Part shown: positions 6,793 through 58,943 of the stretch, piece after piece | Layout: each line of letters begins with the position of its first letter | Numbering within the stretch: position 1 is the stretch's first letter | Source: Isoetes taiwanensis | Lineage: Eukaryota > Streptophyta > Lycopodiopsida > Isoetales > Isoetaceae | DNA length: 64,000 nt | Assembly: GCA_021234155.1 (NCBI GenBank) | Contig: JAJEKV010000098.1 | Coordinates: 1,619,248-1,683,247, forward strand | Reading direction: 5' to 3' | Made by a program: the position numbers and the translations under genes | The notes under the pieces: model-generated | Told to the model about the DNA's origin: nothing | Database searches by the model: none | Seen by the model: the letters and a program-made list of their open reading frames with translations, nothing else

Positions 6793-7240
6793 ACGAAGAC
6801 TTGCAACACAAATTTTGTTATAATGTGTTGCAAGGGATGAAGAGTACCTTAGAATTGTAAATTTTGTATGAAATTGATAAACTTTGATAAACTTAAATGT
6901 TGTATTAAGTAAGGTTAATAATTACCTTGCGTGGATTAAGTTATGAAGTGATAAGTTAATTGGATAATGAAATAGTACAGTAATGTCGTAAACATTACCT
7001 TAGAGTAATTCTAATAATTAAGATAGTAAGTGTGTTATTATAGATATTGTAAAATTAATGCAGGATTTTAAGGTGCGAAGACTTGCAACACAAATTTTGT
7101 TGGAATGTGTTGCAAGGAATGAAGAGTACCTTAAATAATAATTGTATATGAAAGTGTTAAATTATGATAAACTAAATGTTGTGATAACGGAGACTAATAA
7201 GTACCTTGTTTTAATAGAAGTTACGAATTGACAAGTTATT
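6793..7240 (+). repeat. Diverged tandem repeat, period about 281 bp
   Basis: A block starting CGAAGACTTGCAACAC at about 6795 recurs at about 7076 with the same following text (ACAAATTTTGTT, a TGTGTTGCAAG motif, then AAGAGTACCTTA). A weaker match to the ATTACCTTA part occurs near 6150. These look like internal LTR duplications or a short satellite inside the LTR-like tract. Confidence 0.6.
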
Positions 7241-8977: not shown

Positions 8978-10841
8978 ACACTATATGCTGCATAGCTTTC
9001 TTTAAGAAAGTCCATGTAATAGAGTCATAAGCTCTTTTAAAGTCCAATTTAAGCAGCATGCATCCTTGTTTAGAGAGTCTATTTCAGTGAATAGCTTCAC
9101 TGGCTGCTATGTAATTATCTAAGATAAATCTGCCCGATAGAAACCCTGACTGACAATTACTCACAGTATGGTGCAAATGCATGAGAATCCGGATTGAGAG
9201 AATTTTGGCAATAATTTTATAGGTAGTGTTGGTTAAGGATATAGGGCGCCAGCCATTTAGTTTACTCGGATTTTTAGTTTTGGGAATCATAGTGATAAGG
9301 CTGGAGTTGAAGGAGGGGTACAGAGATGCAGCGTCCCAAGCACCTTTCACAAAGTTCATGAAGTCCTCTTTCATAACTATCCAGAAGGTTAGAAAGAACT
9401 CTGGTGGGAGTCCATCAGGCCCTGGGCTCTTGCCTTTCTCCATGCTTTTTAGAACATGCAATATTTCTTTTTCATCAGGGTATTCATCACTTCTTTTCTC
9501 CATAGGCTTGGAAGCTGGGATATTCTTGAAGAATTTATCTAGCTCCTCCTCTTTCCGAGTATTGTAATTTTTATCCCTGAACATATTACCATATTGATGA
9601 AGGAACTCTGTTTTGATATTCTGTTCATCCTCAGTTTTCACCCCATTTTCCTGCTCTAAGACTGTAATAGTGTTGTTGATCAGCTTATTTTTAGCTACTC
9701 TGAAAAAATATTTAGAGCTGCCTTGATCCATCTTATTATAATGTCTGATTTTAGCTCTCAGAGCCATACTCTTTGCTTCCTTTTCCTCTATAGTCTTGAT
9801 GTTGCTCTCTAACAGGACTTCCTGTTTATGGAGATCAGCACATAATGGATTGGCAATTAGCTTCTGCCTGACATCTTTCATATCCTTAAGCAGATTATTC
9901 TTTTCCTCTCTGCTCAGTCTTTGTCTTATCTTTCTCCATTCTTTAATCCAATTCTTATAAGCTTTAAGTTTACCACTGAAAGGTTTCATCGACTGATGAC
10001 TGCCTATTGCTGGTTGGGCAAGATAAAATTGTCTAAAGTCATGACAGAAGATATCGTTGTTCAGCAGAGAACAATTAAATTTAAAGGGGGAGTTGGAAGG
10101 TTTAGATTTGGAGTGAAGGTCAACGGTTCCAGAATTTGAGGAAAGTGGTCAGAAAGAATGTTCCCTTCATCTCCAGTGACAATACAATTGTGAACACTAG
10201 AAATATTGGGGTTGGTAATATAGAATCTATCCAATGTGCAATAAGTTCTCTCAGACCCTGTTCTTTTGTTGGGTGTATTTGGCATTGGCTGAAGGGATGT
10301 AAGTCAACCCTGTAGCTTGCATCAATTCTTCCCATTCCAGTCTTTCATTCCTAGATATGTTGATTCTATTACCAAGCTTAAGGTCCCATTGGGGGGTGTT
10401 ATTGAGGTCTCCTCACATGATCCAGTCTTTAGTGGATGTTTGACCGAGGATCCAGTTTTTTATTTCCTTCCAAATAGGGGCTCTTTCATTTGGTTTAGTA
10501 GGGGCGTAAACATTGATTATCCCAAGGGTATGACCTTGCATGTTAATAGTAACACAATGCCACCTGTTAGAGGGGCTACAATAAGAGGACACCACATTTA
10601 GAGTGGTCCAAATCATAGCCAAACCCCCTTTGGTTCCATCAGCAGTTATATAAGCAGAACCAACCCCTTTTTTTAACCATCCTCCTAAATTGGAAGCCTC
10701 AAAAAGAGGGAGGTGATGTTCCTGAATCACTAGGAGGTATGCATTGTATTCCCTTGCCAGGGCAATAGATCTCCTTCTCTTTATAGGGCCTTTAATTCCC
10801 CTAACATTCCATGTAACAATCTTCGTTTCGAGATGCTGCAT
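8978..10841 (-). pseudogene. LINE ORF2: APE endonuclease and truncated reverse transcriptase
   Basis: ORF2 starts at 10841. The N-terminal APE-type endonuclease shows WNVRGI, QEHH (metal-binding Glu), NVYAP, GDLNN and SDHFP in the right order (10841 to about 10140). A TGA stop sits just before GDLNN at about 10414, and frameshifts follow. The reverse transcriptase resumes at 9989-9084 with SPGPDGLPPEFF and RPISLTNTTYKIIAK. A stop at about 9083 is followed by motif A (LDFKRAYD, about 9010-9050). The frame and the match end at about 8978. This ORF would nick target DNA and copy the element's RNA at the nick, but it is clearly dead. Confidence 0.85.
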
Positions 10842-10943
10842 AGGAGGTCAGGAGGGACAATCTTAACAGGATTTATATTTCATGGTATTGGATGCTGGTC
10901 CACTGAAATTTGGATCTTTTAGGCATGTCTTCCTTTGCTTTTT

Positions 10944-12953
10944 TTATCTCTTGTTAGGGGTAAGACCTGACTTGGTTTTATCTAGGTAAGCTCCAAGAAC
11001 TTCAAAATCTCTCGGGGTGATATCATTATACTCATTGTCAGACATTCCTATCTCATCCTCCATGTGAACCCAGAATTTTGACAAGATTGGAGTGCAGGGC
11101 TCTCCCTCCATATTGGAAACACAAGAACTAGGTGATAATTTATTCAAATCAGATAAGGTTTGATTACTTACCTGGATTAAAGCATCTTTACCATCCATTT
11201 GGTCTCCTTTTGTTTCTGTTGTAGGTACATGCAGGAATTCCTCCAAGGCATCAGCAACAAATCGCTCTACTGCTGCAGCATATCTACCATCATCTTTGCA
11301 TTGTATGAAAGCTTGAAGGAAGGAAATGTCATCCTCAGCTTGCTCTTGATCTTGCTGCAGGGGAGGTTTAGGATCTGGGGTGGGCATGCATGTGGGAGGG
11401 TTGCAGTTTGTGGTTAGAGTTGGCTGTATGGATGTGGTGGCTACAGACCGAGATGCAATATCTGAAGACTGTGCTGGAGAGGATTTAGACCCTCCTTGAG
11501 ATCTCCCTTTACTGCTTGCCTCCTTCAATTGTTTGTCCAGGTCATTGGCCTCTGTGTTAGCTATGGCATCTTTTGCTTGTATTGTTTCCTGCATTTCTAG
11601 GTTTTCTTGTGTTCCCTCCATGTTGAGGATCTGGAATCTATTCCATGTATCATAGACGTCCCAGTTGACTGTGTCCTGCATTTGTTCCTCTTCTTTGTCT
11701 GGTATTTCTTTATGTGCGGGTTCTTCCAGATTCTGTTGAGCTTGTTCCATTGATTGCCATGGATCTCTCTTCCGTTTGAGACTGATGCTGTTTCTCCGAG
11801 GTGTCTAGTATTTGAGCTCCCTGTATGTAGATCCTGTTGGGGGGGCTATCCTTGTTAAATTTTGCAAGTTGTTGTTGTTTCGCGAAGGAGACTTCTTTAT
11901 TCTGTACCTTGCTGACCTGAGTCATTGTTTTCTTCCCTTTCTTTTTATCCTCAAAAGCCTGCAAGATCCTCTGTGATAGGTCCCAGTTTGCTTGTCTTAT
12001 CCTCTCTCTGTTTTGTCTTTTTCTCTGTAATTTTTTAAGGTTTTCTCTGTTTCCTGTGCTCTGATGTGTTCCATGTGTACCATATGTCGAGAATCCCTTT
12101 CTTGAATTACTGTAGTATCCTGCTTCATCTGGATTCCATTTTCTGTCGCCGTTTGTAGCCTGTTCAACCTGACATTCCTTTCCGTGTTCCTCCGGGGTGT
12201 GTCTGGGGATGCATCTACCACCACCATGGAACTTCTTCCCGCATATACCACAGTCCGGGGGGAGGCCACTCAAGTTCAACTGCAAAACCCGCTTAGTTTC
12301 AAACAGATCAAAGAAAGTCACCTCTCTTGGGATAGGCTTGAGAAGGTCAAGTTGGATGTAGACAATAGGAGGTCGGTCTGGGCGGAAGGTTGCAGATATG
12401 AATTGGCCGATGGAATTGAAGATTGCCTTGAAGCATTCTTCACCCCAGTAGACTGGATTAAGTCCATGGGGTTGCAGAAAAACTGTGACTGGGAGGGATT
12501 TGAGGGAGAAGGGGATGAAATGGTAATCCCATTTTTGAAACTTGATTTGATACCCTCTGTGAATGATTCGGCTCCTTTGCAGCAGATCAAGAGCAGCTTC
12601 CTGGGACGTTAGTTCGATCAGGAAGAAGGGTGATTGTAACCAATGCATGGAAGCGATTTGAATGTTTCGGTTGAGCATGCAGATTTGTTTAGCCATTTCA
12701 TTAAGATTAAAACCTTCTTTTTCCACCCATCCTATTACTGCATTTTTTTCCAGAGTATGCAGTTTATCTCGAACGGATTGGTGAAATCATCATCGGGCGC
12801 ATACAAGAATTTATGTTGTCGAAGGATGTTCATCCATTCGTTGGAGAAGATTGGTGCAGCCGGTCTAGGTAGTTCCGGTTCTTCTTCACGAAGCAAGTTA
12901 TCCCATTCTGGGATACCTTGGTTTTGGATCATCCAAGCAGTGAAGGCCGCCAT
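10944..12953 (-). pseudogene. LINE ORF1 protein, frameshifted (RNA-binding, zinc knuckle)
   Basis: The reading frame starts at the ATG at 12953 and continues in three overlapping frames (12953-12735, 12726-11710, 11750-10944). It must therefore have at least two frameshifts, near 12780 and 11740. The central part has the order seen in plant L1 ORF1 proteins: a DUF4283-like region (about 12720-12330), then a CX2CX4HX4C zinc knuckle near 12206-12250. The C-terminal third is a long acidic, glutamine-rich tail ending in a TPNKR motif. In the family, ORF1 binds the element's RNA. Assignment rests on the zinc knuckle and on position directly before a LINE ORF2. Confidence 0.75.
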
Positions 12954-16263: not shown

Positions 16264-16683
<420 letters not shown>

Positions 16684-22082: not shown

Positions 22083-23316
22083 TGGTCATGGGAGGAGCTC
22101 CTTGTAGACGACGTTGGTTGTAGTGTTTGTCTTATTGTCTTCTAGGAGAATTAGGACGTCTTCTCTTTTTCGTATTCGGGTGAGTGTTGTGTAAAGTTGT
22201 CCGTGGGGAAAGACTTCACTGCGTAAGTCAATGACAATCTTGTCGAGTGTGAGTCCCAGACAACTGTTGAATGTTGTTGAATACGCGGGTCGCAGTGGAA
22301 GTTGGCGTCGGTGGCATGTCCATGGCCATTTTTCTGGGTGAATGTTGTCTTTTTGTTGTGGGTCCCCTGTGAGTAATTTTACTTGCACGAATCTGTTATG
22401 TAATGAGGTTACGATGACCTTAGCATTTTTAACGAGGCCTCGTCACGCCGAAGCGCCTTTGTGATGTGGCATATCGTATTGGGCTTTAGTCGAAGCTCGT
22501 GTTGTGGCAATGATGGGTCTCTGTAACCGTTTAAAAAGTCTGTTGTTGCCATTGGGTGGTCGTCTACGGTTTGGTCGTTTTCTATTAGTCTGTCCACGCT
22601 GTAATAGGGTTTGTCTGGATCTGAGAGAAGTTGTATGACTGTGTCGTTGAATTCGTCGACAGTGATGTTTTTAGGAATAAAATTCCTCTATTTTCACACG
22701 CTTCCGGGTCTTTGACGATTTGTTTGTTGTATAGAAAATCAACTGCTTCTTGTGGGTTTGTGGTGGTTTTGAATAATGTCAATGGCACGTTTTCCAGTAG
22801 AGTTCCTTCTCCGACTGCATCGACGAAAGACACGAGCTCGGGATCTCCGACATTTCTAATTGGTTCATTGAGTTCAAGAACTTCGAAGTGGTTTGATAAG
22901 TGCGACGATATTATGGAAGCATTTATTGTCGCTGTCTTGCTTGCTTTTTTGACGATTGGTGCAACTTGTCTGAAGTCTCCTGCTGCTATAAATAGTTTTC
23001 CTCCAAAGGGTGCATTCGTTCCTGTTATCTTTTTAAGCAGCACGTCAACTGCCTCTATGACTGCGCGGTTAACCATGGGAAACTCATCCCATATAATGGC
23101 AGTTGCTTGACTTATTAGGCGTGCCCTTGGGGAATGTGGATCGAGTAGCGAATGGAGATTAATATTGTTCTCAATGACAGGGATTTGAAATAAGGAGTGT
23201 GCAGTTCTACCACCAGGGTAGAGACATGAAGCAAGTCCAGTAGTAGCACATGGGAGGACAATGTTTCTTGATCCTCGTATTCGAAGGCATAGAACAAGGT
23301 TTAAAATGAAATACAC
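22083..23316 (-). pseudogene. Helitron-type PIF1 helicase remnant, no Walker A
   Basis: Read on the minus strand from 23316, the protein has the PIF1/Helitron helicase order: ATTGLASCLYPGGRTAHS, motif II WDEFPM, GGKLFIAAGDFRQ, then LNEPIRN (to about 22860). After a frameshift near 22670 there is a linker (22620-22409) and the C-terminal motifs FNSCLGLTLDKIVIDLR and QLYTTLTRIRKREDV (22290-22090). Helitron helicases unwind DNA for rolling-circle transposition. The nucleotide-binding Walker A that should precede ATTGLAS is absent and no Rep domain is visible upstream, so this is a 5'-truncated, frameshifted fragment. No Helitron terminus (CTRR with hairpin) was identified. Confidence 0.85.
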
Positions 23317-24530
23317 TTATTTAAGAAGTGCGTTTGAAAGATTCCTTTGAAAATTTTTGAAAGTTCAAAAAAGAGGCAAAAAAGGGAGCAGGAAAGATTG
23401 TTGAACACTTGGCGGTCAATAAATCCCATAAAAAGTAGCACTTTTATAGAAATGTGTTGGGAAAAAAAAATAAAAAAAAATAAAATCAAAAGAGACTGTT
23501 TTGAGGAGGTTAACGCAAATATTAAAGAACCAACAAATTAATTGTTGTTAAAAAGGAAGCATATGCAGTGTGTCCTTTTGTACAAAAAATCTGCAAATGC
23601 CTTTAAAGTGCAATTTACAAAAAGTAAAAAATAAAGTATGTGGAAAAGAAGTGGTAGTTGCTGTAATTAGACATTGCTGGAGACAGAATAAGAGAATCCA
23701 TTTTAACTTTCTTAGTGGCATTAATGCGAACATTAGAGAACATAAATTACAGTTCCTCGTACAAATCTATACCGACATTTTAAAATTGAAACATGTCGGT
23801 AGATAATTTATCTGACGGAGGTTCCTCCCGATCTCTGGGGCTCCCATCTCCCTTTTGCTTGCGTTTCTTGTGATGCCAATGAGCACGAGACACCGCCGAT
23901 TCTAATGGTACTTGAACCGGCCGCTTGGGGGGCTCTACCTCCATCGGTTCGAGGTCTACAAACTCCACCCCCTCGTCTTTTCTTCCCGTAATAGGAGGCT
24001 GGATTTCAGTGTAGGTGCCTTTGACATCCCTAAAGACCATTTTTTGCTCCTAACTCCTCATTTTCATCCGGAAAGGACTCCTGGGGAGTTTATTCGAGTT
24101 CGATGAAGCCGATTTTGTGCGGGTCAATGTTAATCGACACCACGTTCGCCCGCTTTTAAGAGCGCATATAGCTGTGGTCCCGGTTCCCGAAAAAGCATCC
24201 AAAACCCGGTCAGTGGAAGCGTGAAAACCATTGTATCATTGTTAATTAGCCTTTGGGGTTTACGGTAGTGAGACACCACAACGCCTTTGCCTCTGCGGGG
24301 TCTCTAAACTACGTAAGGCGGCGGGAATTGGAATGCATTGCACGGTGGGGTCTTCTCACCTTGAGTGTTAAAGTGCACCATGGTCTTCTTGGTGTGGGTA
24401 TTGTAGTAGCCTATGTGAAAATGTTCGGCGGTGACTAACCGTGGACCACCACCATGACCTTTAACGTTTGTCTTGACCTTAGAGAGAAAAGAAAAGGTAA
24501 GTCGAAAAGTACACGACCAAGGGACTCTTT

Positions 24531-24625
24531 GTATAAATTTATCTGTGAGGTCTCCTCATATAAATTTATACCATGGGTTCCCTTTGTATAAATTTATACA
24601 AAGAAGGACATAGTATAAATTTGTG
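24531..24625. repeat. Palindrome cluster in the last intron of the methyltransferase gene
   Basis: Four copies or near-copies of the TATAAATTTATA core start at 24531, 24558, 24585 and 24611, spaced 27, 27 and 26 bp. The copy at 24585-24600 is a perfect palindrome with TG/CA ends in place of GG/CC. All lie in the intron between exons 6 and 7. Confidence 0.9.
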
Positions 24626-25712
24626 CAGCAAAATCTTTTTAAAATACAAAAAGCAAGCGACTTCGAGGCTTACCAGATGCAATTTTCAAAGCCGGGCGTT
24701 GCGGACCAATGAAACGGGTTTTAACACGGACATCGTTTGAAGGTTGGAGTGAAAGATTATGAGTCTCCAATTTGCCCGGACAGCGTGATGTCCTTTTAGA
24801 CCATCCAAAATGCTTTTACTTGCACATGAGTAAAGGCTTCATCATCAAAAACACTGTCCTTGATCTTAAAACCATAGGGAATGTCTGCTATGCACAATGT
24901 AAAGTTCTGCTTATCCAACAGTGTCCCTAGTTTGGTGCAGTCACCATGTACAACTTTGTACAAGCAGTCCTGGCCATATGTTGTAAATCTTTCGTAGCCA
25001 CCCTCGAGCGCTTTTCCACTACACGCTTGCTTACGTTTCGATGGCTTTTTTTAATCTTTGCCTTTCCTCTTTTGCCCTTTGAACTAGATTCAAGAAGCCT
25101 GCTGGCAGACCTTTCTTCTTGTTCTGTAAGAAAGGAGTAAGGCAGAGGCACAAAAGCACAAAAGCACAAAGCAGTTCTTCTTACAAACTCACCCAGCCAC
25201 TAAAGTTGACAGCATGTTCTCGTATTATACTGTCTATTGTACATGTCGGGTAAAGAAGTTTGCACTCCTCCCAGTCTTCTAAATTTAGTTGCTTCATTAA
25301 CTCCGACTGGCATGTGACAATGTCCTTTTGACTGCAACCAAGAAGAGAGTTAGAGATGGATTGAGTACAGTGCATAGTAAAGTCTCCTTACGTCTTTGCT
25401 TCCTTAGCCATTTCGTCGAGAGTAAATTCTTTGGCAACAACTTTTTCAAGAAGCCGCACAAATATTTCTTTGCTCTTCAGACCCTGTAATTGTGTCCATG
25501 GCACTATGCTCATGTTTTTTTGTTTGGACTCAGAAACTTTTTTTGATTTTGTGCCAGCGCTGCTGGATTGGTCTTTAAGTTCACCATCTTCGAACATGCA
25601 GAAGATTCTTTCTTGCAGATCCCACACCTGTTAAAAATTGAGGACCGTTAACTCAGCAGCTTAATGGCTAAGGCCAGTTGTGAAACAACTAAATCTAGGC
25701 AGGCGAGGCCAC

Positions 25713-25838
25713 GGTATAAATTTATCCCGTTCATGCCCGCGGTATAAATTTATACCGTAGTGGGCTGAGGTTCTAAACGTCATCGTTTTAGAATGGTATA
25801 AATTTATACCGAGTCCTGGTCCGGTATAAATTTATACA
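25713..25838. repeat. Palindrome cluster in intron 3 of the methyltransferase gene
   Basis: Copies of GGTATAAATTTATACC start at 25713 (one end degenerate), 25741 and 25795 (both perfect) and 25823 (last base pair changed). A further perfect copy is at 26176-26191 in the same intron, beyond the MITE. The MITE target site (ACAG) overlaps the end of the 25823 copy. Confidence 0.95.
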
Positions 25839-25839
25839 G

Positions 25840-26160
25840 GGGCATAAGCATGCTACACCCTATAAAAAAAAGTACCATTTAGGAACCATAAAACTACCTA
25901 AAAAGGTATCCAACACTGGGTACTGGGTAATTTTATAATATCTCAATAACTACAAATGTTAAATTGAATGCATTCATTTTGACCTCCAATAGTATTGTCT
26001 CTATCTTAACCTTGAACATTGATATGCTTTTGACATTTTATATTGAAGTTTTGAATTAGTTTTGACCAAAAGAACAAGAAAATAGTACCCAATCCAAAAG
26101 TACCTAGTGCAGGTACTTTGGCAGGTTCCAAAAATGGCAGGGTGTAGCATGCATATGCCC
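25840..26160. mobile_element. MITE copy 1, 321 bp, 4-bp target duplication ACAG
   Basis: Terminal inverted repeats of about 21 bp start GGGCATAAGCATGCTACACC on the left and are mirrored on the right, ending ATGCCC, with one mismatch. The flanking target duplication is ACAG (25836-25839 and 26161-26164). The interior is AT-rich with no frame and contains AACACTGGGTACTGGG, shared with the copy at 30287-30592. It lies in intron 3 of the methyltransferase gene. Confidence 0.88.
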
Positions 26161-27875
26161 ACAGTGGCATTGCCCGGTATAAATTTATACCGATACAGGA
26201 CGCGGTAGAAATGTCTTTTAATGCACATATTCTGGTAAACATTGTAAGAAACTTAAACACAAAGGAGAAAATACTTACTTGGCCATCTCTGAACACAAGT
26301 TGAAAGTAGTTGTCATATTGCTTTACCGCCATCATAGGCTTCTTATCAGAGTCATAACTTAGACAGCATTCTGTCACACAAGCCTCCCGAAGTTCTTGGA
26401 GCTTGTTCTTTTGCTTCTTAAAGTCATCTCCATGCAACTGCTTGAACTCAATGTATTCTCTGTGCATGAAGCGAATTTTGTCTATGAGGCTCATCTTCAA
26501 CCTGAAGTCATTGTCCAGGTTGTGACTTACAGCTATGACTTTGGCCTCCTCATCTGTCAACCCGACATATATATGGGCTTCCACACTCTTCCAAACCTCA
26601 TTCCTGCTCTCTTCCTTAGACAATTCTTTCCTAGCTTTATAACTATGTGTTCCGCCGAGAACGTAGTAGGTATAGTCCTCAAAATCGGCCTTCCTGTAAT
26701 CCCTGAGCTCTTGGACCTGTTCTCTGTTAACCATGACAACCAGAGGAGACACATGGGCATGTGGATTTCTTCTCATTCTTTGCTTTAGTATGCCCACATG
26801 TGCTGCGTACAACTTCCGAACTTGAAGCACCCTGACCCCGTCTTCATTCTTTGGCGGTCGCTTGATAGTGCTTAAGGATAAGGAGATTGTTTGTTTTAAG
26901 AGCTTTGTTTCATTCACACGTTTCAAAATTGCTCTTGATTTAGGGTTTCATGACAATATCGGCCCCTGGCGCCTTTTGTAGTGCTTCTGCTGATTCTCCA
27001 ATGGTCAATGCTTTGGTCTTTCTCGATTTTTTCGGTGGCTCTGTGGTGGTGACCAAAGCTTGCCTTTTTCCTCTTCCTTTAACCACAACCTCCTCTTCCT
27101 CTTCCTCTTCTTCTTCCTCCTCTTTGTCTTTGTCTACCTCTTCATTTGTACGTGGGTACCAGTACCCCTTCACAAGAACTTTTTCAGCACAAAGAATAAC
27201 GGAGGATAAAATGTCTACTAAGTCCGGCAGTCAGGCAATCTCAGTTAGCGTTCAGTGTGTATAAATTTATACGAGAAAGCAACAAACAAAAGAAAAGAGA
27301 TCATAATACTTACGTAACCAAGTTTGTTGTTCTCGGAAATATACTCATATACATCTTTTGGCTTGCACATGCTTATTCTAAACATTATGGTGCTCAGGAT
27401 GTACTCAACAGCCCCGTCGTCATTAATGCAAGTCATAATGATTTCATCGTCATTTTGTGAGGCCACCAAACTCGTCATTTCTCCAGCCGGGTAATAATCC
27501 TTAGCCTTATACTTACCCCTTCCTGTCTTGTTGCAAAGGTAAAGGTAGGAATCAGTGGGGTAGCGTTCCCTAGTGCCCCTGTGAGTGTACCATGTCACAT
27601 CTCTGAGTTCGTAGGATTGTGGCTTTGGAGCTGAAGGCTGACCTTTGAGTTTAAGTGTTATCTTTTGGCTGAAAACGCAAGAAAATCAGGCTTAAACACC
27701 GTCAGAAAAGGCTTTAACACTACTTTCTTTTGTAATTTTGTACTAAATATGTGGTCTTTGAGAAGCTATTCTAGGTGTTACTGTACAGCTTTTTCCGGTG
27801 CTCTAACTCTAAAAACACTGTAAATTTATGGAAACTGTGTAATTTTCTACAAATTTTTAAAGATCTGGCCTTTTC

Positions 27876-28137
27876 GGTATAAATTTATACCGAAAGAGGT
27901 CTCCACGGTATAAATTTATACCGCAGAGTAATCCGCGGTATAAATTTATAAAAAGGGATTGTCGGTATAAATTTATACCAGTTCGTCATCCTCCTCGGTA
28001 TAAATTTATACCGAGAAGAACACACACGGTATGAATTTATACCGGGAGACGTCCTGCGGTATATCTTTAAGCTGTTTATGTTCAGACTCGGTATAAATTT
28101 ATACCAATGGGGTTCAGCCACTGTATAAATTTATGCC
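27876..28137. repeat. Nine-unit palindrome array in intron 1, step about 31 bp
   Basis: Units of the 16-bp palindrome GGTATAAATTTATACC start at 27876, 27907, 27937, 27964, 27997, 28028, 28058, 28090 and 28122, with steps of 31, 30, 27, 33, 31, 30, 32 and 32 bp. Five are perfect and the others carry one to several changes. The bases between units (about 11-17) are unrelated to each other. The step is close to three turns of B-DNA, so bound proteins would lie on one face. The array sits wholly within intron 1, between the donor at 28213 and the acceptor at 27669. Confidence 0.95.
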
Positions 28138-28456
28138 GAGAGAGCACGACCTAGAGAAAGTTTAAACTACTAAAAGAAACCTAAACTTGAAATGGTACGG
28201 GTTAGAAACTTACGTGGCCATGTCCGTATGAAGATCCTTATAGCTCTTTGGAAGTCATAAAAGGGGCAAGTATATAAAGGCGGATCATGAAGCGCCGAGC
28301 CAAGCGGCGATATCTGAGATAATGAGTCGCCTCGCCTCCATTAAGTACTACTGCCAATTCCTCTTTCGTATAGTTTCTGTCCACAAGTTTTTATATACAG
28401 CGTTCTAAAGTTTTCGTATGATATTATACCCTCCTTGTTTGCTTTCAATGTCTTGT

Positions 28457-28641
28457 TGTATAAATTTATAAACTTCGTATAAATTTATACCACTCTTTGT
28501 CTCTTGTGCTTCTGCTCGGTATAAATTTATACCCTCCTTGTTTGCTTTCACTGTGCAACTGTATAAATTTATATGCTTTACTATATAAATTTATACCACT
28601 CTTTGTCTGTCGTTGTTACGCTTTCGGTATAAATTTATGCC
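28457..28641. promoter_or_regulatory. Palindrome cluster between the divergent methyltransferase and transposase-like genes
   Basis: Six copies of the palindrome core start at 28457, 28475, 28518 (perfect), 28560, 28581 and 28626. They lie in the 790-bp region between the minus-strand start codon at 28221 and the plus-strand start at 29009. The position suggests operators or origin-like sites shared by both genes. Open frames here that repeat YKFIP are by-products of the palindrome, not proteins. Confidence 0.75.
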
Positions 28642-29008
28642 GTCTGGCTAGCGACCTCATATGGCGGAGGAAGAGAGCGTCCAGAGCCACCCGTCGCTTC
28701 GCCCGGCTACCTCCTCCCATGGTTTTCACACCAATGGTTGCTTTCGCCAGAAACCGACTTTCGACTTTTCGAGCCCGACCCTCCGATTGCGGCACATCGC
28801 TACCACCGCCAATGCGGTTCACGCCACCACCTCCGGCTCACGTTGCCGTTTACCACCATCCATGCATTTCACTCCTCCGAACCACTGAGACAACAAGGCT
28901 ACCAGTCCTCCACCCCGTCGTTTTTACTCGGTAGAGCCCGGACTCCCTCCTCCTGTTCATTTTAGTAAAGTCTCCTTTGTTCAGCCTAGACAGCCCACAC
29001 GGTCGCAA

Positions 29009-31513
29009 ATGACTCCATCACCATCCATTGCACTACAGGATGCCACTTTTAGTGAAAGCAGTCAGCACCATGCTACTCCTGTGTTTTATGAGACTTCTGG
29101 AGCTACTCAACTACGTCATCCGCCTCGACTTCTTTTTCCAAGGGAAAAGCAAACTTCTTCCACACAGGATCAACACACGCCTAATCTCACAACATCGACA
29201 AGTACAACGTCCATTCCTACAATGTCAGATGAAGAAACACCTCAAGTTGATCTCTCAGACGAGGACCTACCAAAGCCACAAGACTCTATGTTCGAATTCA
29301 AAGCTCATGCAAGTAAGAATCTTAAGCGAAACTTACACAAGAAAGCATGTACATCCCAAAGAAGAAAGAAACTTATGGACGAGGCTCACTTGAGGACAAC
29401 ACATACAAAGCACTGTTGTTCTCAACGTTGTTTGCTTAAGATTGGACTAAAGGATTTGAGGTTGATTCGTGATAGTTACAGTTCAATGACTCTGCTAGAC
29501 CAAAGGGGCTACTTGGCCTTCAATATTAGGCCAGATTATGGTGAGAAGTTTACTTACACAGCTGGTGGCCACACCGTCTGTCAAACAACCTTTAAATTGA
29601 TTCATGCCTTAGGCAGCAGACGACTTGACCGCCTGAAGAAAAGGCTTGACAAGAATCCAGGCATTAATGACTACGGCCACTCAGGAGGTATATCCAGAGT
29701 TCATGCCCTTCAATGTGTTTCCTGGATGGAAGGTTTCTTTAAGGAGTCTTGCGAAAAACTCCCTAACAGCCCTATGTACCACTTGAGTGACAACTTCACG
29801 AAACGTGAAGTCTACGATAATTATAAGGACATGTGTGTTGAGGCTGGAGAACGCCATGTCTGCTACTCTTACTTTACTGTGCTCTGGAAAAAAGAGTTTT
29901 CTCGCGTGTCCATTCCTAGAAAGCATCGGATGTCTGTTTGTGCTACATGCTCTGAATTAAAAGCTTGGAGACAAAATGCAAGGACACTTCACACTAAAAG
30001 TAAGCTTCCAAAATGTGTTCTTGCCTAGTTCTACTTAAAAGTAGGTTCTTTCCTAAACACGTTTTCATTTCAGATGCATTGAAAGAGAAATTGAACAAGC
30101 ACAGAGAACAACAATCTTTGGAAAGGAGAAAATTGACAAAACATAGGAAGAAAGCACTGGAACAACCACACAACTACATATCGGTTGTTATTGATGGAAT
30201 GGACCAGAAGAAGACCACCCTACCACATTTTGTCAATGTGTCTAAGGATGCTGCTGAAGAAGATTTCATACACCTACATGTTGTTGGGGTGAAAGCATGC
30301 TAGGGTGTACCATCTAAAGTTAACTACCCAAAAAAGTACCCAACACTGGGTACTGGGAACTTGCATAAATGTCTCAATAAACAATAAGTTTGAGAGTTGA
30401 TTTCATTGATTTTAGTCTCTAATAGTATTGTTATCCTCTAATACTATAGATTGACATGTTATTGACCTTCAATTCAAAAGTTTGGAATTGATTTTAATGC
30501 AAAGAAAAAACAAAAAGTACCAGTTTTAAAAGTACCCAGTGAAGGTACTTTTGAGGGTTCCAAAAGTGGTACACCGTAACATGCTTTCACCCGTTGGTGC
30601 TATGGTATTTAATGGAAAACTATCTTGCAAGGCATTTTTGAACTATCCAAACATTCATGCTGATCCAAATCTCACTATCACAATATTGAATAAGCTTCTT
30701 TCCAATCTAGAACTTATACCACCGGTTCTATATCTTCATCTAGACAACACGACAAGGGAAAATAAGAATCAGGCGTTGTTTGCTTACTGTGCTATGTTAG
30801 TAGAGAAACAAATCTTCAAGAAGGTGAATATTGGTTTCCTGCTTGTTGGTCATACACACGATCAAATTGATCAGATGTTCAGTAGGTTCTCTAAACGTCT
30901 TGCTCGAAAAAAAAGCTCTCGACCTACCAAGCAATGATTGAGGTTATCCAAGATTCCTACAATCCTCGGCGGACACATCGAAGTTATTGGAAGAAACTTA
31001 TGATTTCAAGGAATGGATTTTTCGGAGAGATCAACTGGGTCACTGTGCTATTGAACCCTTGAGAAACATTACATTTCAGCATCAGATCAAAATTTCACTT
31101 GTAGATGGCAAGGCCATCTTACAAGGAAAGAAATATGCCACATCCTTGCAAGTGGCGGGGGCCAAGATGTATTCAATTCATTCGCACCATCCCCAATACT
31201 AGTTCCATTATCTCTGCAGAGCAAATGCCTCTAAAAAGCTTGAAAGAAATCACAAAGAGTAAAAAGGAGGGAAAACCATTTGACTCAAACAAATCATTGG
31301 ATTATATTGAGACAAGTATTCAGTCGTTGCTCTAACCACTTTGGGGAGGCAGATGCTTTATGGTGGCCTCCGTTTTTTTCTCGGCAACGTGACATGTTGC
31401 AAGCTTCATTACAAGGTCGAAGAACAGTTACATTCAACTGGCCATCTAGGCAAACTCTCCCTGTGCAAGTTGAGAATCAAGAGGAACATGTAGAGGATCG
31501 AGAATGCTTATAA
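29009..31513 (+). pseudogene. DUF7869-like, DDE/RNase-H-type transposase-like gene, interrupted by a MITE
   Basis: Exon 1 (29009-29998) and exon 2 (from 30073) join across a 74-bp GT..AG intron. A Ser/Thr-rich N-terminus is followed by a basic Cys/His region, then SIPRKHRMSVCATC near 29910. Exon 2 has VVIDGMDQKKTTLP (30185-30225) and, after the MITE at 30287-30592, LHLDNTTRENKNQ (about 30730-30770) and VGHTHDQIDQMFS (about 30845-30885). These three acidic blocks are the hallmark of the DUF7869 family and resemble a DDD/E catalytic triad, so I infer a transposase. Removing the MITE and one 4-bp duplicate restores the frame exactly. Other frameshifts occur near 30910, 30975, 31195 and 31335. 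It is divergent from the ParB-methyltransferase gene. Confidence 0.65.
30287..30592. mobile_element. MITE copy 2, 306 bp, 4-bp target duplication GTTG, within an exon
   Basis: The termini GGGTGAAAGCATG and CATGCTTTCACCC are perfect 13-bp inverted repeats, and the match continues imperfectly to about 25 bp. The flanks carry GTTG on both sides (30283-30286 and 30593-30596). The interior shares AACACTGGGTACTGGGAA-like text and repeated AGTACC/GGTACT units with the copy at 25840-26160. It splits the transposase-like gene between the first and second acidic motifs. No frame is present inside. Confidence 0.92.
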
Positions 31514-40194: not shown

Positions 40195-41645
40195 GCGCGA
40201 TGTCACCTGAGGCACCAACATGCCACCCTAGGCTCAAACATGCCAAAAGGTGGCTCAAACATGCCAAGTGGCTCCAAACATGCCCGCGTGGGCTCCCAGC
40301 ATGCCACCTAGGCTCCAGCATGCAGTGGCTCCAAACAGCTACCACTTGGCTCAAACATGCCAAGGTAGCTCAAACATGCCACCCTAGGCTCCAAACATGC
40401 AAAGAGTGGCTCAAAACATACCACCACAGGTAGCCGGGTAGCTCAAACATGCCACCTTGAGATTCCCAGCTTTATGCCGCGCGAGGCTTCACATGCCAAG
40501 GTGGTGCAAACATGCGGAGCTCCAGCATGCCGGCAGTTCCGCATGCCAAGAGTGGCTCCAGCATGCCACCACCTAGCACCAACACACAGGCTCCAAACAT
40601 TGCCAAGGTAGCTCAAACATGTCGTGGTAGCTCCAAACATTACCCGCGCGAGCTCCAAACACCACCTAGCTCTAACATGCCAAGGTGGCTCAAACATGCC
40701 CGTGGCTCCCCAACATGCCACCTCGAAAAACATGCCACCCTGGGGTCCAACACAAGGTGGCTCAAACATCCCACTAGGTCCAAACATGTCCAAGGTGGCT
40801 CCAAACATGCCACCTTGGGTCCAAATGCCACCTAGGGCTCCAACATGCCAAGGTGGAGCAACCATACCACCTAGGCCCCAACAAGCCAAGGTGGCTCCAA
40901 CACCACCTAGGGCTCCAAATGCCAAGGTGGCTCAAACATACCACCAGGGGCCCTAACATGCCAAGGTGGCTCCAACATGCCATATATGGGCTCCAACATG
41001 CCACCTAGGCTCCAACATGCCACCCCAGGCTCCAACATGCCATGGTGGAAGCAAAGAGTTACGTGGGCTCCCCATGCCCCCTAGGAAACCAACATGCCAA
41101 GGTGGCTCAAACATGCCACCTAGGCACAACATGCCACCTAGGCTCTAACATGCCACCCCCTAGGCTCAAACACATGCCGCAGGAGGGTTCCAACATGCCA
41201 CCTAGGCTCCAACATGCCAAGGTTCAAACAGCTCTTCCCGTGGGCTCCCAATATGCCACTGGGCTCAACATGCCAAGGTGGTCAAACATTCCACTGGGGC
41301 TCAAAACATGCCAAGGTGGCCCAAAACATGCCACTTGGCGGTCCAGCATGCCGGTGGCTCCAGCCCATACCACCTAGGCCCTACAAGCAAGGTGGCTCCA
41401 ACATGCCACCTAGGCTCCAACATGCCAAGGTGGCTCAAACATTAGCCTAGGGCCCATGCCAAGGTGGTCCAACATGCCATATGGGCTCCAACATGCCACC
41501 CCCGGCTCCGGCATGCACCAAGGTGTCAAACATGTCTCAAGATGGCTCAAGCGTGCCATGTGGGCTCCAACATGCCACCTAGGCTCCAACATGCCATAGT
41601 GGCTCAAACAGCGTCTCCGCGTGGGCTCCCAACATGCTTTCGGGA
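40195..41645. repeat. Minisatellite of CATGCC units, about 1.45 kb
   Basis: A dense array of units of about 20-22 bp alternates two forms: CATGCCAAGGTGGCTCAAA and CATGCCACCTAGGCTCCAA. Dozens of units are present, many with one to three changes or a few bases lost. The units carry short palindromes (CCTAGG) and mutually complementary parts (CCAAGGTGG and CCACCTTGG), so single strands could fold. Long repetitive frames on both strands are artefacts. Confidence 0.95.
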
Positions 41646-52300: not shown

Positions 52301-55064
52301 ACCACGTGTCTTCTCTTGTCATGTATTCTCTTTTATTACTATGTCTAATTACAGCAAGGTAAACACCCTAATATAGATATGGTTCATTTTCCTTGTTGCC
52401 CGAATTAAGGATGGGGCTATGTAGGTTTGGGAATACTACCATTCGAAATCGGCCCACATAAAATAGCAGATCTAGTTACTAAAATAGCCACAAGATCTTA
52501 ACCATAGTCAAATTTTACCTTGAAAAACATTAGATCTGTTGTATACTGTATTTGATCCATTAAGTGCTTATTTGGGAAGGTACTATCATTTTCTATTCTA
52601 TAAATTTAAACTATGTGTCTAATTGTCATCAATAGGGATACTTACAATAGTGTAAACACCCTAATATAGAGTTGGTTCACCTTCCTTTTTGCCTTAGAAA
52701 CTTACTGGCTGGGAATACTAACTTGGAAGATGCAAATTATCGTATATCATTAACTAGTGATAGCACATAATGTAGTTATCTCTTGTATGACTATTATATT
52801 GTTAGTGGGTCAAACATCTCAAGAGTATAGTAAATAAGTGCCCTTTGGTTGATCTATTGTGAATACATGGACATATATCTTAATAAATAAAATTGGCTTT
52901 AGGTAATAATTGTATGAAATGGGATAAAACTTGAGGTCTAATGTTACCTATGGTATCAGGTAAGCTAAACATAAGGTGGTTTGAACCATAGATACGATTT
53001 AATATTGAGTTTGTTTCTTAAAAGTGATACCATAGTGAAATCTGACATATGGTATAGTTGTATAGGGAATATTTCGTGCAAATGTAGGTAATTACAGGTA
53101 AAATTAGGTCTAAACCCTAAATATCGTCGATTGTAGGTACTACTACCACGATGGTCATTGCGGCTAGTGCAAATCCCACGGCCAAGGCAAACATTTGGAA
53201 TCTTACGACATATAGTTGTATAATCCACATTACGGTTATGATTGTGAATCAAGGGTTACATTATTTGCATGCAAATCAATGGATAAGAGGCAATGTAATA
53301 TTATAAGGCCAATGGTTTGGGTTAAGACTCGAGATCAGCTAAGCATCATGTTTTAAGATTATATATTTACTTAATACTTACGATAATCATGGTTAACATT
53401 TGTATAAATATAATAGTTCCGTGGCTTGTATCTCTTAGTGTTTGCAAATATGGCGGCGGGGAAGGTTCAGGAACAAGGGACATACGAGGAAACAAGCTCA
53501 TTGAGCTACTCGGAAGTCCGGAATCGAAGCATCCTAACCCTCACCCCACCAAAGCTCAAGCGCTTGAGCTTTGTAGAATACATAGGATTGATCCCAATAA
53601 AAAGTCTTTGGTACCAGCATTACAAGGTTTATCCTCGCTCTTAATTGTGCAAATGCCCTCAAAGCAAGGGAAAATGGGGGACAAAAAATGTTGAAAATGT
53701 TGAAGTTGTTGGGACTCCATTAATGAAGACTTGAAGTTTTCGATGACGACCCTCTGACTTAATGGGGTTGATTTATAAGCCCTTGTGTTTATTGATTTTG
53801 AAGAACTAGCATCAATTTATGGCATCAATATTGTAAGTAGTCTAGAATCTTAACCGGTTTAGGATTTCAAGGTCTTGCTCTATTTGATCTAATTTGCAAA
53901 GTCATAAATAACCATATATGATTTTCTCTGTTTGCATTAGGACATATAATAGATTTCAGCTATGTAGATCTGTATATACTGGTTCTGTTGTAATATTAAA
54001 GTTGGTAAGCATGGAATTAAGGATGGAATATATTCTATGTAGGTTATTAATACTAGGGGCATAGCTAATAAGATCAACATGGTTGTGATTTGTTTTATCA
54101 AAGTTGTGGACATGGTGCGTACCATTGGATTTAAGCGTGATTTATTAGAGATGAAATAGCATATTTTCTTGGTTATTAGTAAATTTTTAGCAGTTCTAGT
54201 CACTTAAATAACCACATAGATCTTAACCATAGTCAAATTTTACCTTGAAAAACATTAGATCACGTTGTATTTGCATTGGATCCATTTAGTGCCTATCGGT
54301 AGGTACCATCATTTTTTACGTAAATTTAAACTATGTTCCTAATATGTCTGTCATTTCATATATCTTGGCAAAGATTAGCATTCTGATGTAGTCTTGTGCT
54401 AAAATCACGGTTGTGTAAGGTATTTGATCATGTTGATCCCTTGGAAATCTGAAATAATTTTCTGTATTGGTTATTTATGGGTAAAGGGCTGAAAATGCCA
54501 AGTGTGTTTATTGCTTACCTGCTAGTCAATTTCAGAATTACCCAGTAGGCTAATCTCTGATTTGTTTGACTGCAGGTAACCAAACACACTTCTCCCATGC
54601 ATTTGCATTTGAGTGTGGTTGAGACTTGTCTTGAAGACTGAAGATCTTTTAATTTTGACATTATATTGTAACTTGTTGTATTTGCCAAAGAAACAAAAGG
54701 TAAATCTCTTTACTATTTAAGGTCATTCTGTCTTGCAACGATTGGGAGCATTATGGACCACTACTTTTGTAAGGTTGTATGATTTCTTATGAATAACTTT
54801 TCATGGATCTTTTTATATCCCTGATTTATCGATGTACTTGCTCATTTAATTTTTCCTTCTTTTTGGTTTTAATCAAGTTTAAAGCATTATTCTACTATCT
54901 TTTTTTCATTAGCTTTCATTAGCTTTAATTTTTTCTAGAACTGGTCAATGAAATTCGAGGTCTCTTTAAGCCTCCCCGTTAGGGGTCAGATAAGTCCATT
55001 AATCTTTTAAGGTTAATTGGATGTCTTTTCTAATTAGAGGATTAGTTTAGGCTAGGCTATATAT
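52301..55064 (+). repeat. Direct repeat 1 (pseudo-LTR) of the Penelope-like element
   Basis: Starts ACCACGTGTCTTCTC directly after a (TA)n tract and ends at GGCTAGGCTATATAT. Collinear with 59091-61848. It differs from repeat 2 mainly between about 52400 and 54330, where small replacements cluster at sites that are CTG or CAG in repeat 2. From about 54330 to the end the two are nearly identical. Confidence 0.95.
53449..53780 (+). pseudogene. Broken copy of the small AT-hook/SAP-like frame in repeat 1
   Basis: Collinear with the intact 111-codon frame at 60226-60561 but shifted between frames several times, so no protein of that length can be made. Most differences from the intact copy fall at CAG or CTG trinucleotides. 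Confidence 0.85.
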
Positions 55065-55182: not shown

Positions 55183-58100
55183 GAAGGGAATTCTCTCCCA
55201 AGCAATCAACATACAAGCTTTCAAAATCAGCTGGGTAATCGTCCAGGATGGTATCCAGAACTCAAACAGTTTGGTTATGAAGCTGCTGGCATTGTGGCCC
55301 CGAATAAAGCTGTGCAAACAATCTTGGGATGCATTGTTCAAAAAAGCCTGCATGGGGTATTTATCTTCAATGAAAGTGCGCTGATTGATGGTGATATTTC
55401 TGTCATACTGTTTATGGGATTTGATAATATGTTGGAAATGGTTAGTAGCTTCAAGTTTGCAGATTTTGAGCAGTGTAAAAGAATCATTGAGGAAGCATAT
55501 ATAAAGTTACCTGCTGAACATATTGCTGCTGATAGCAAAGACCTCACTGATCTGCTTGCCTTTATTAAAGGTCTCACTAACCTTGAAAGCAGGAACTCCT
55601 TAAAAATCTCCTTTCCTCCCAATGATAAAGCTGTAAGCAAGGCCAAGAAGGATGATCCTAAAACTGATACCTTGAATAACTGTCTCTTTGACATTGATAT
55701 GATTCCTGAAGATAACTTGGTGAATGAGGCAGATGCTGAACCAGTTACTGATGTGGAAACTTTGGAAGAGAAAACAAGAAAGGAGCTACTGAGGTATAAT
55801 ATTAAAGAACTCAATCTCTTTAATTGTGGAGCCTTTCCTATTATGTCCAGCAGGAATGTAGAAATCCATGGAGAACAGTTTAAGCAAACTTTATGGAATA
55901 GCAGAAATTTAGGTGTTCTTGCTCCTATTAGCAAGAATTCATTGATCAAAATGGCACGCCTTGAAGCTAACGAAGTCTCTAAGGCTGAGATTGATGCTCT
56001 CAACTTTGTCAAACATATTAGAAGGATTGATTATGATTTCCCCTTTGACTTGGATTTTCTGGGCAGAACTTGTGATATTGGCACAGGTTACTTCATAGGG
56101 CAAAAGGGGCATATGGCCAAAACTGATGAGAGAAGAATTGACTTCTACTTAAAGAGGATATGGAGAACATATTGCCCTTTTGTTAAGTGCAATTGTGACA
56201 AATTGACTGATAGGAAATGTCCTGATAATATTACATGGGTGGATCAGCTTTTTTGGCATATGTTGAACAATCTGGAGGTTATTTGGCCTGATAAATCTGT
56301 GGCATATAGATTTGCTGAATTTTGTGCATTTCTGTCCTCTGATAGAATCAGAACAGTGGTACTGGATTATATTGGTTACCTTGCTGTCAGGAAAGTCATG
56401 TTTGACATGACTCACAAGTATGCTGAAAATGCCAACTGTAACTTCAAGAAAGAGTTCGGAAATTACAGAATAATTGATATCATTGAGAAGACAATCAAGC
56501 CTATCTCGTTTCTCTATGACCACCAGCATGATAACAGCAGTTATGGTTATGCTCCAACAAGTAAGAAGAGAAATCAGCCCAGCACTGCATCTGCTGTTGG
56601 GATCCTACGTCCACCTAAATTGACTGCTAGAAGTGGTAATAATTCTGTGATCCGTCCAGTACAAAAACAAGGTATCTATATATTTGTCGTTCTGATTGTG
56701 ATTTTTTGCTTGATCTGACTGATAATGCATCTGCATATCTCAAAACTTTGGCCACAGTGCCTTACTTATATTGGGATTTATCCCATCTTACTATTTATTC
56801 TTTATCTGATTGGCAATACTTTTTTCTGAAACAGCATAAAAAAAGGGTTATCATCACCAGGCCTGATGGAAGACTTCAACTGAAAGTTTTCAAGGAAAAA
56901 CAAGTAAAAAAGTTTGTCCATTTTACTTACTTCTCTAAGATAGTGGATAAAATATCTTTTAGCAGTACATTCAAAAGCGTACTTTGTCGATACTTTGGTA
57001 ATACAGGTTATGATATATGGGAAAACACTGTTTTTGGTTGGAGGTATCCACCCAATTTAAAAACTATGCTTTATAAGCCCAGGGCTAATTTTGCTGAGGC
57101 AAATTTTGTCAAATGTCCCTGCTCTAATCCAAGTTTACAGAAATACATTGACCAAAGTATTGGGCATATTAGGACCACTGATTTAAGTTTAATTCATAGT
57201 AAGGCTCTAAAAAATTGGGTTTCTCTTGGTCTTAATTATATTCCAGATCGACCATTCAATCTTGCTGAATTTAAGGATGAAATGGAAATTACTATACAGC
57301 AGTTCTTTAATGTGCATAGATTTTCCTTATTGGATGAGGATAAAGGGAGAATTGAGGAATGTATGATGGTCCTAAGAAAAGAAACAAAATGGCAGGCTAA
57401 AGCTTATATTGAGAAAAATATTGACTCTAAGAAAAAATTCCAAGTTACAGATGCAAAAGTTACACGGAATATTGAGTGGTTGATTGAGAATTTTTACATT
57501 TCAGGAATAGATAAAGCAGCTAATAATCCTTCTTTCATATGCCCTTGTCATATTAGAGATGAGGCTACCAAAAGACTTAATGATGGAGATTTTATGGCAT
57601 GCAATATGGACAGTGATCAGCTTGTCAGACAAATTGAACTAGACCTGATAAACATCATAGGGGACAATGCTTTAAGTAGCAAGGAACTGCCCTATCTTTT
57701 AGGGATTTTCAAAGCGCATAAATTAGAATATAGATGGATATCCAATGCGCATGATACAATCTTTTCAGTAGCTGCATCTATAGTCGCAGCAGGATTAAAT
57801 CACTTGCAAGAGATATGGCCTCTTATTTGTTTTGAAAAATGCAAAGCTGCAAATATGTTTATGAGGAACAGGATTAAAGCATCATGGTTTGTTACCTCAG
57901 TTTATGAGGTGGTATGTAACCTACCTACTAGAATCAATGATGTTTTCGTAGCGGACATAACTAAATGTTATGAAAACATCCCGCTTGAAGGGGATGAAGG
58001 TATTTGTCATGTTATGGAACAAGTTATTAAACTGACCTGGAATTTCAAAAGAAAAGAAAACAAGAAATATGAAATGTGGTATCGAATCAAGGATAACCTT

Positions 58101-58943
58101 GCAATTAGTATGGAATGGAAGAAAAAGGCACCAGAAAGTGATTCATGGAAAATGCTTGATATGGAACTTTTTATCAAAATGAATAATTGGCTTCTGAGCA
58201 ATTGTTATTTGAAGATGTATAATGGAATATGGAAGCAGATTCGTGGTATCCCAATGGGTTTTGCCTCAAGTCCAGGATGGTGTAATATCTACTTGGGATG
58301 GTTTGAGTTGAAATTTATTACAAACCTAATTGGCTTAGGCAAATTGCAAGAGGCTGCAGCTTTCAGTGATACATATAGGTACATGGATGATATTCTGGGA
58401 ATTAATAATCCATACATCAGGAAATGTTTGGGATTACTGCAGAATGGCAATATGGATACCAATACAGTAAGTATATACAATCTGAAGCAGCTTGGCATCA
58501 AGGATGACACTGAGTATTGCACAAAAAATAAGGAACAAGGCCTTGGAGCCAATTTTTTGAATATGAGCATCAAAATAGATGCTCCACATCTGGGCTTTTA
58601 TTCTACATGTAGATATGACAAAAGAACTAAGTTACCATTTGTAGCTTCAGGATTTATACACGCTAGCAGCTGTCGTCCATATTTAATGGCATGCAATATT
58701 ATAATATCTCAGGTTCAGCCATACCTATATGTTCATTCTAATCCAGTTGCAGCTGCATTGGATATTCTGGATCTCATTAACATATTCATATCCAAGGGTT
58801 TTAAAAGCAAGGATATTTGGCATAAAGTACTCAAAGTACTACATGAAGAAACATTTCCTGGGCTCAAATACGACATCAGCATTGTCATCTTTGAACTTAA
58901 AAAGCAAAGGTATGCTCTTTCATTATTACTGTTTTCTGACTAA
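55183..58943 (+). CDS. Penelope-like reverse transcriptase, two exons joined by an 86-bp intron
   Basis: An acceptor (TTTTTAG at 55182) opens exon A (55183-56671). A GT..AG intron (56672-56757) joins it in frame to exon B (56758-58943), giving about 1,224 codons with no stop. The region before the polymerase has CPC-type cysteines and a DKA block (IDKAANNPSF, about 57504-57535), the position of the Penelope DKG motif. Then come FKAHKLEYRWIS (about 57703-57740), motif A ADITKCYENIP (57946-57980), motif B IRGIPMGFASSPGW (58238-58280) and motif C YRYMDDILG (58374-58400). It would copy element RNA into DNA. Retained introns are a known oddity of Penelope-like elements. No C-terminal GIY-YIG is present. 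Exon A's upstream partner may be the small AT-hook/SAP-like frame in the repeat. Confidence 0.85.

Follow-up and report, generated by a model that had tools for sequence, protein, structure and literature searches.

A window of 64,000 nucleotides from the Isoetes taiwanensis genome (assembly GCA_021234155.1, contig JAJEKV010000098.1, positions 1,619,248 to 1,683,247; window coordinates are used below) contains a broken copy of a multicopy DNA transposon carrying a gene for a protein with a predicted ParB-like domain and a DNA methyltransferase. The upstream region and introns of this gene bear an array of 16-bp palindromes, a feature absent from the initial annotation of this DNA, and relatives from a second clade of the protein bear a different palindrome. 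Probably, the transposon encodes a sequence-specific DNA methyltransferase that binds parS-like sites of its own and serves to counter host silencing; that the protein would recognise its own element is the strongest inference from the sequences.

Allowing up to three mismatches, the window contains 23 copies of the palindrome GGTATAAATTTATACC (0.44 expected; largest value in a shuffle 3). All 23 sites lie outside exons and are confined to 23758-28641, with none from 28642 to 31495, and a scan of the remainder of the window with the 14-mer and two mismatches gave three hits, none of them palindromic. Genome-wide, the exact 16-mer was found at 7,218 places, inside or outside such elements, about one being expected from the window composition, while its reversed-string control was found at none. 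Every one of the 24 clade I loci that were examined (L009-L028 and four lower-identity loci, L038-L041) has sites of this type, 6-36 per locus. Among 472 sites from 21 clade I sequences, ten touch detected coding pieces of the ParB-methyltransferase gene, including one in the related copy L016 that overlaps the stop codon, and none touches the coding sequence of the divergent DUF7869 gene, a gene detected in 17 of these sequences. The conserved unit over 580 sites is CGGTATAAATTTATACCG, 18 bp long, with at most 0.18 bits in the flanks; this set includes the three non-palindromic window hits, and, as the inner 14 positions were used in selection, only the outer ones are unbiased. After masking of the sites, no similarity was seen in introns 1 and 3 between L016, a subfamily A copy, and any of the nine subfamily B copies tested (L018 was left out), yet these nine copies carry 20-32 sites each despite the unalignable introns; in the upstream regions, partial similarity of 70-77% to L016 was seen in five of the nine. 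Helical phasing of the sites was considered and rejected: the 449 close spacings in clade I give an appearance of phasing that vanishes when only the 52 distinct values are considered, and shared ancestry of the spacings explains it.

Nine clade II loci (L029-L037, stretches of 3.7-8 kb, most of them covering the DUF7869 gene only partly) were picked from a genome search with an Adiantum relative, and their ParB region is 51-54% identical to that of L016. All nine lack the clade I motif and bear TGTATTCCGGAATACA and its variants, 5-17 sites each, and this second motif was found in none of the 24 clade I loci. None of its 99 sites falls in a detected exon or DUF7869-gene piece, as judged by an overlap rule slightly narrower than that for clade I. 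Both motifs are 16-bp palindromes with a common outer GTAT...ATAC. The association of palindrome with protein clade is complete in the sampled loci (24/24 vs 9/9) and represents one single split. Close spacings in clade II fall at 40-43 bp in 47 of 56 cases; their 12 distinct values gave p ~0.01 for phasing at 10.5 bp, which tandem duplication explains. Two clade II loci, L036 and L037, also contain the palindrome variants GTGTATTCGAATACAC and near-palindromes TATTCCAGAATA, possibly specific to a sub-lineage.

The ParB-methyltransferase gene occupies 23783-28221 on the minus strand and consists of seven exons and six introns, as established by reading of the open frames and by exon comparison with L016, a copy from the same genome in which the identical seven-exon chain forms an uninterrupted frame of 932 amino acids (aa). 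The order of the minus-strand coding pieces, their motifs and the six introns had been proposed in the initial annotation and were borne out by both lines of evidence. One open exon piece (26290-26926, minus strand) holds both GGTHSYKA and GLTDEEA, with DIPYG and then FSGTGTT downstream; the latter, the S-adenosylmethionine (SAM)-binding motif, reads FSGSGTT in L016. The intron 5 acceptor is non-consensus in L016, and the intron 2 acceptor is changed in the window copy. The window copy is broken: instead of the about six lesions counted initially, it has 22 frame-shifting indels relative to L016, of which one is in exon 3, six in exon 6 and 15 in exon 7, and part of them could be assembly errors.

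The protein firmly belongs, by profile and motifs, to those containing a beta-class DNA N6/N4 methyltransferase. The initial annotation had proposed an N6/N4 methyltransferase and a check against the N6_N4_Mtase profile PF01555, which the joined L016 protein matches above the curated cut-off (E=3.3e-15, 57.1 bits vs 26.7); the closest PDB chain by sequence is CcrM (6pbd). In L016 and L029, DIPYG precedes FSGSGTT, that is, what we take to be motif IV (D-x-P-Y) stands before motif I (F-x-G-x-G-T-T). Catalytic motif IV is retained in both clades, and motif I deviates in the Adiantum proteins P0002 and P0003. In beta-class enzymes a motif IV starting with D is characteristic of N6-adenine methylation, and N6-adenine is the most likely target here because motif IV begins with D. 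The presence of a ParB/sulfiredoxin-type domain is supported by phage ParB profiles and by the ranking in fold searches: six of 22 family members match the ParB-like partition family 1033 of PHROG (best 4.7e-6), and ParB-like proteins rank high in fold searches, the repressor KorB being among the matches. This part of the initial annotation was supported, but not through the Pfam profile it had named, as PF02195 was absent from the matches of all 22 members at E<=1. Thirteen of the 22 have a match to DUF6551 below its cut-off (best 0.0055). In the BFVD fold search, phage ParB-like proteins were high in the ranking, none at E<=0.001. A profile of alignment A1 retrieved no ParB entry from PDB sequences at E up to 10, its matches in that range being sigma factors (mostly through the acidic linker), RsrI methylase and DHFR-TS, and AlphaFold models of near-identical copies had a mean predicted local distance difference test score of 37.9.

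Carriage of the gene by a mobile element, as initially suggested, was borne out by terminal repeats, target duplications and multiple copies, but the element is not limited to the gene: it starts at 23293 and continues at least as far as 31495. Of the 150 copies listed, the 20 ranked highest were taken as 9.9-kb stretches. Where the stretch includes the left end, homology to the window starts sharply at 23289-23293 with the terminal repeat. Both ends, inverted repeats of 30 bp, were located in eight of the 20 copies; a 4-bp target duplication is exact in seven of these and has one mismatch in the eighth, and the copies span 8.2-9.3 kb, later insertions counted in. Inverted terminal repeats and a 4-bp target site duplication characterise the Sola superfamily. 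By its ends, duplication and gene layout the element fits a Sola-like multicopy DNA transposon; the transposase candidate was recognised by its DUF7869 match, the likeness to Sola lying in ends and layout. The DUF7869 gene is the presumed transposase; no MULE family was among the Pfam matches of the scanned pieces of this divergent gene, and no literature on DUF7869 was found in a paper search. Clade II locus L031 has a like layout with a DUF7869 relative (E=1.4e-43). A PIF1-like helicase remnant (22086-23316, minus strand; PF05970 8.2e-41 on 22585-23316) adjoins the left end from outside; the open reading frame (ORF) at 22585-23316 was considered as a part of the element and rejected, as homology among copies stops at 23289-23293. 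Two related insertions resembling miniature inverted-repeat transposable elements (MITEs), at 25846-26160 in intron 3 and 30288-30592 in the DUF7869 gene, have inverted ends of ~22 and 26 bp and are missing from the copies whose alignment crosses those points.

Ten of the 20 copies (L018-L021, L023-L028) form subfamily B of clade I. Their ParB exon is 78-81% identical to that of the window in DNA, and its protein is 92-93% identical to L016 (10/10) and 92-94% to the window (five compared). Between subfamilies A and B the proportions of synonymous (pS) and nonsynonymous (pN) differences in this exon are 0.87 and 0.048; pN/pS is 0.035-0.071 over five groupings. Pairwise omega within subfamily A ranges from 0.034 to 0.389, synonymous divergence (dS) between A and B being past correction. 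The ParB exon is under strong purifying selection across two long-diverged subfamilies. Because its genome matches number at least 150 (150 of 3,169 candidates were scored) and pN/pS between copies is this low, the gene is not a chance reading; many of the genome copies contain stops. Constraint is weaker in exon 2 (pN/pS 0.28-0.41). In the methyltransferase exons, pN/pS is 0.07-0.09 for A copies among themselves, 0.17-0.18 for A against B, 0.33-0.51 for B copies among themselves, a range raised by frameshifts, and 0.35-0.48 for the broken window copy. Values for the DUF7869 gene (0.48-0.65) are inflated by frameshifts and were left out of the evidence.

The DUF7869 gene is 88-96% identical to the window in nine of the ten B copies (none was detected in L018) and 92-98% in five A copies with long matches, short ones, that of L012 and one in L026, having been set aside. 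Since the ParB exon of the B copies is only 78-81% identical to the window and their DUF7869 gene 88-96%, the comparison suggests that the two halves of the element have different histories, with exchange of modules, the ParB-methyltransferase half being the one that seems to have been swapped. L022 has the opposite pattern (ParB exon 90%, DUF7869 part 83%).

In the mechanism that we favour, the ParB module would recognise the 16-18 bp palindrome in the upstream region and introns of its own gene, as suggested by the location and conservation of the sites and by their co-divergence with the protein. The methyltransferase, of a class assigned by homology, would mark bases within and around the arrays, and the mark or the bound protein could oppose host silencing in trans, for all copies sharing the site; a lineage-specific palindrome would spare host genes and other transposons. 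The last step follows the analogy of the Arabidopsis VANC proteins discussed below, and anti-silencing is favoured because the layout resembles the VANC system. A more specific version is possible, although on balance doubtful: a eukaryotic parS-like self-marking system, in which every transposon lineage would have a ParB-type methyltransferase of its own with a private 16-18 bp palindrome, and N6-methyladenine (6mA) or N4-methylcytosine (4mC), placed in trans over the element, would shield it from cytosine-methylation silencing. The protein would then load at the arrays, possibly sliding as a cytidine triphosphate (CTP) clamp like bacterial ParB, and its site specificity would diversify like that of parS versus the Noc-binding site (NBS). 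Real roles of 6mA and 4mC in plants are disputed; the family supplies a defined candidate writer, candidate sites and at least 150 ParB-exon copies, which make site-specific plant 6mA/4mC directly testable. If the mechanism is true, two unrelated solutions, VANC and this one, would exist for the same problem, and a ParB-type module for recognition, one that has natural variants in specificity, would be in eukaryotic use.

Two observations weigh against recognition of the palindromes by the ParB module: the DUF7869 gene also differs between the clades, so that a transposase and its site could equally have co-diverged, and part of intron 1 was called as a 30-31 bp tandem repeat. The former would fit palindromes read by the element's transposase, as subterminal repeats sometimes are, with the ParB-methyltransferase working elsewhere, and so would the large number and repetition of the sites. 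The sites, however, are spread over the ParB-methyltransferase gene and the DNA upstream of it instead of the termini; they avoid the DUF7869 coding sequence in the 17 clade I sequences where it was detected and, as far as it was covered, in the nine clade II loci, and the window element has none beyond 28641, all of which makes a transposase reader unlikely. The tandem repeat, together with the regular 40-43 bp spacing in clade II, would suit arrays that arose as mutational by-products, intron slippage repeats with no protein reading them. Slippage would hardly limit conservation in clade I to the 18-bp palindrome, keep sites in otherwise unalignable introns, or produce a complete association with the protein clade in the sampled loci and thousands of exact copies in the genome, and we regard it as highly improbable.

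A self-limiting regulator, which by methylating or binding the introns and upstream DNA of its own gene would repress expression or couple transposition to replication, shares the recognition and methylation steps with the anti-silencing mechanism, and the likelihoods of the two overlap. Dam methylation is known to time IS10 transposition to replication. Of the 23 window sites, 14 lie upstream or in intron 1, as in an autoregulator, and a repressor, KorB, was among the fold matches; the other nine sites, however, are in later introns or at the gene's 3' end, and sequence cannot tell repression from anti-silencing. We regard such a regulator as rather unlikely, while keeping it in view. Finally, the gene could be no more than a relic: a methyltransferase captured from a bacterium or phage and now decaying without function. 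The indels of the window copy and the stops in many genome copies agree with decay, but the purifying selection on the ParB exon across both subfamilies, the open 932-aa copy and the motif IV kept in both clades leave this explanation very little probability. The coordinates of the features are given in the table below.

Table. Features of the transposon copy in the window, its ParB-methyltransferase gene and its palindromes
Feature	Position	Strand	Basis
Left terminal inverted repeat	23293..23322	+	homology start in copies; pairs with right end of complete copies
Transposon body in window, right end missing	23293..31495		copies run beyond 31495 to right repeat
Divergent DUF7869 gene, presumed transposase, interrupted and truncated	29009..31495	+	PF25273 E=6.6e-38 on 30539-30937
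Upstream palindrome cluster, 6 sites	28457..28641		motif scan
Exon 1, start codon	28214..28221	-	exon chain compared with L016
Intron 1 array, 8 sites, mostly ~30 bp apart	27876..28137		motif scan and tandem-repeat call
Exon 2, N-terminal region	27314..27668	-	exon chain compared with L016
Intron 2 palindrome, 1 site	27258..27273		motif scan
Exon 3, acidic linker, ParB-like domain, start of helical region	26279..27224	-	L016 comparison
Intron 3 palindromes, 5 sites, split by MITE-like insertion	25713..26191		motif scan
Exon 4	25392..25627	-	exon chain compared with L016
Exon 5	25193..25331	-	exon chain compared with L016
Exon 6, methyltransferase, catalytic motif DIPYG; broken in window copy	24674..25123	-	L016 comparison
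Intron 6 palindromes, 2 sites	24557..24600		motif scan
Exon 7, methyltransferase, SAM-binding motif; broken in window copy	23783..24477	-	L016 comparison
Degenerate palindrome, 3 mismatches, directly past coding region, 1 site	23758..23773		motif scan

Elsewhere in the window, two adjacent long ORFs of 474 and 745 aa (55294-58943, plus strand) look Penelope-type by eye only, the second having a below-cut-off match to the reverse transcriptase family PF00078 (0.0018); they are flanked by related short ORFs at 53389-53694 and 60202-60561 (plus strand) with the common HPNP.PTKAQ..ELCRIHRIDPNK. ORFs at 9084-12726 (minus strand) are by eye similar to long interspersed nuclear elements, one encoding a DUF4283 protein (2.4e-9). 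An uninterrupted histone H3 ORF of 136 aa is located at 16273-16683 (plus strand), and a minisatellite with a unit near GCTCCAACATGCCAAGGTG and periods of ~19 and 38 bp at 40231-41610.

Among the matches listed, the only protein relatives were from Adiantum nelumboides and A. capillus-veneris, annotated as hypothetical or uncharacterized. The prokaryotic origin proposed initially is plausible, yet a relative was confirmed neither in IMG/VR, scanned with two short peptide patterns that matched 100 times, nor in 50,697 phage records, where tblastn with the ParB region of clade II locus L037 had no match at E<=1; a viral origin was set aside on the same grounds and on the BFVD result. The initial annotation was aware of no described plant gene of this type. 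No land-plant case was found in print, among the matches listed, mostly from open journals, and no report of cognate palindromes for such proteins was found among them; the type itself, however, is known from algal transposons, as the brown-algal Sola1-1_Ec32 of Ectocarpus carries a ParB-DNA methyltransferase protein, and green and red algal cases are attributed to Iyer 2011 and Petroll 2025 in passages of the same source (PMC12477816). What is new here are the palindromes and the clade-specific sites.

As described in those passages, Sola1-1_Ec32 resembles the Isoetes element in combining a ParB-like and an N4C/N6A-type methyltransferase domain in one protein and in placing the gene of this protein and that of the transposase on opposite strands of a DNA transposon, and its authors likewise suggest that the protein binds and modifies the element's own sequence (PMC12477816). 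The same passages on the algal elements mention no such palindromic sites (PMC12477816). The layout of these transposons is found again in the window element, with a predicted ParB domain and the DUF7869 gene as presumed transposase. Unlike the algal cases, the present one is from a land plant, has a high copy number, and has candidate cognate palindromes in non-coding DNA that differ by clade.

VANC is a protein of MULE transposons (VANDAL) and is not known to carry a methyltransferase; MULE carriage was not found here, the target duplication being 4 bp and the divergent gene encoding DUF7869. Arabidopsis VANC binds motif arrays that lie in introns and elsewhere in the non-coding DNA of its own VANDAL elements, causes loss of DNA methylation and co-evolves with its motifs (PMC5735166); the likeness, which implies no homology, is that of a transposon protein with motif arrays in the non-coding parts of its own family. 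In contrast to this methylation loss, the protein described here would be expected to add a mark. In bacteria, the parS (TGTTTCACGTGAAACA) and Noc (TATTTCCCGGGAAATA) sites are different 16-bp palindromes of related proteins (PMC7383237), and the ParB-parS and Noc-NBS pairs would share with the Isoetes family a ParB/Srx-type fold, weakly modelled here, the length and symmetry of the sites, and related proteins with different sites. We take this likeness of the palindromes as a lead and not as proof; no partition ATPase was noticed in the element, no search aimed at partition ATPases having been made, and unlike bacterial ParB the protein belongs to a eukaryotic transposon and is fused to a methyltransferase. 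Finally, CcrM and other beta-class N6-adenine methyltransferases likewise belong to PF01555 and have motif IV before motif I, but unlike CcrM, the Isoetes protein is proposed to recognise its target through the ParB module fused to it.

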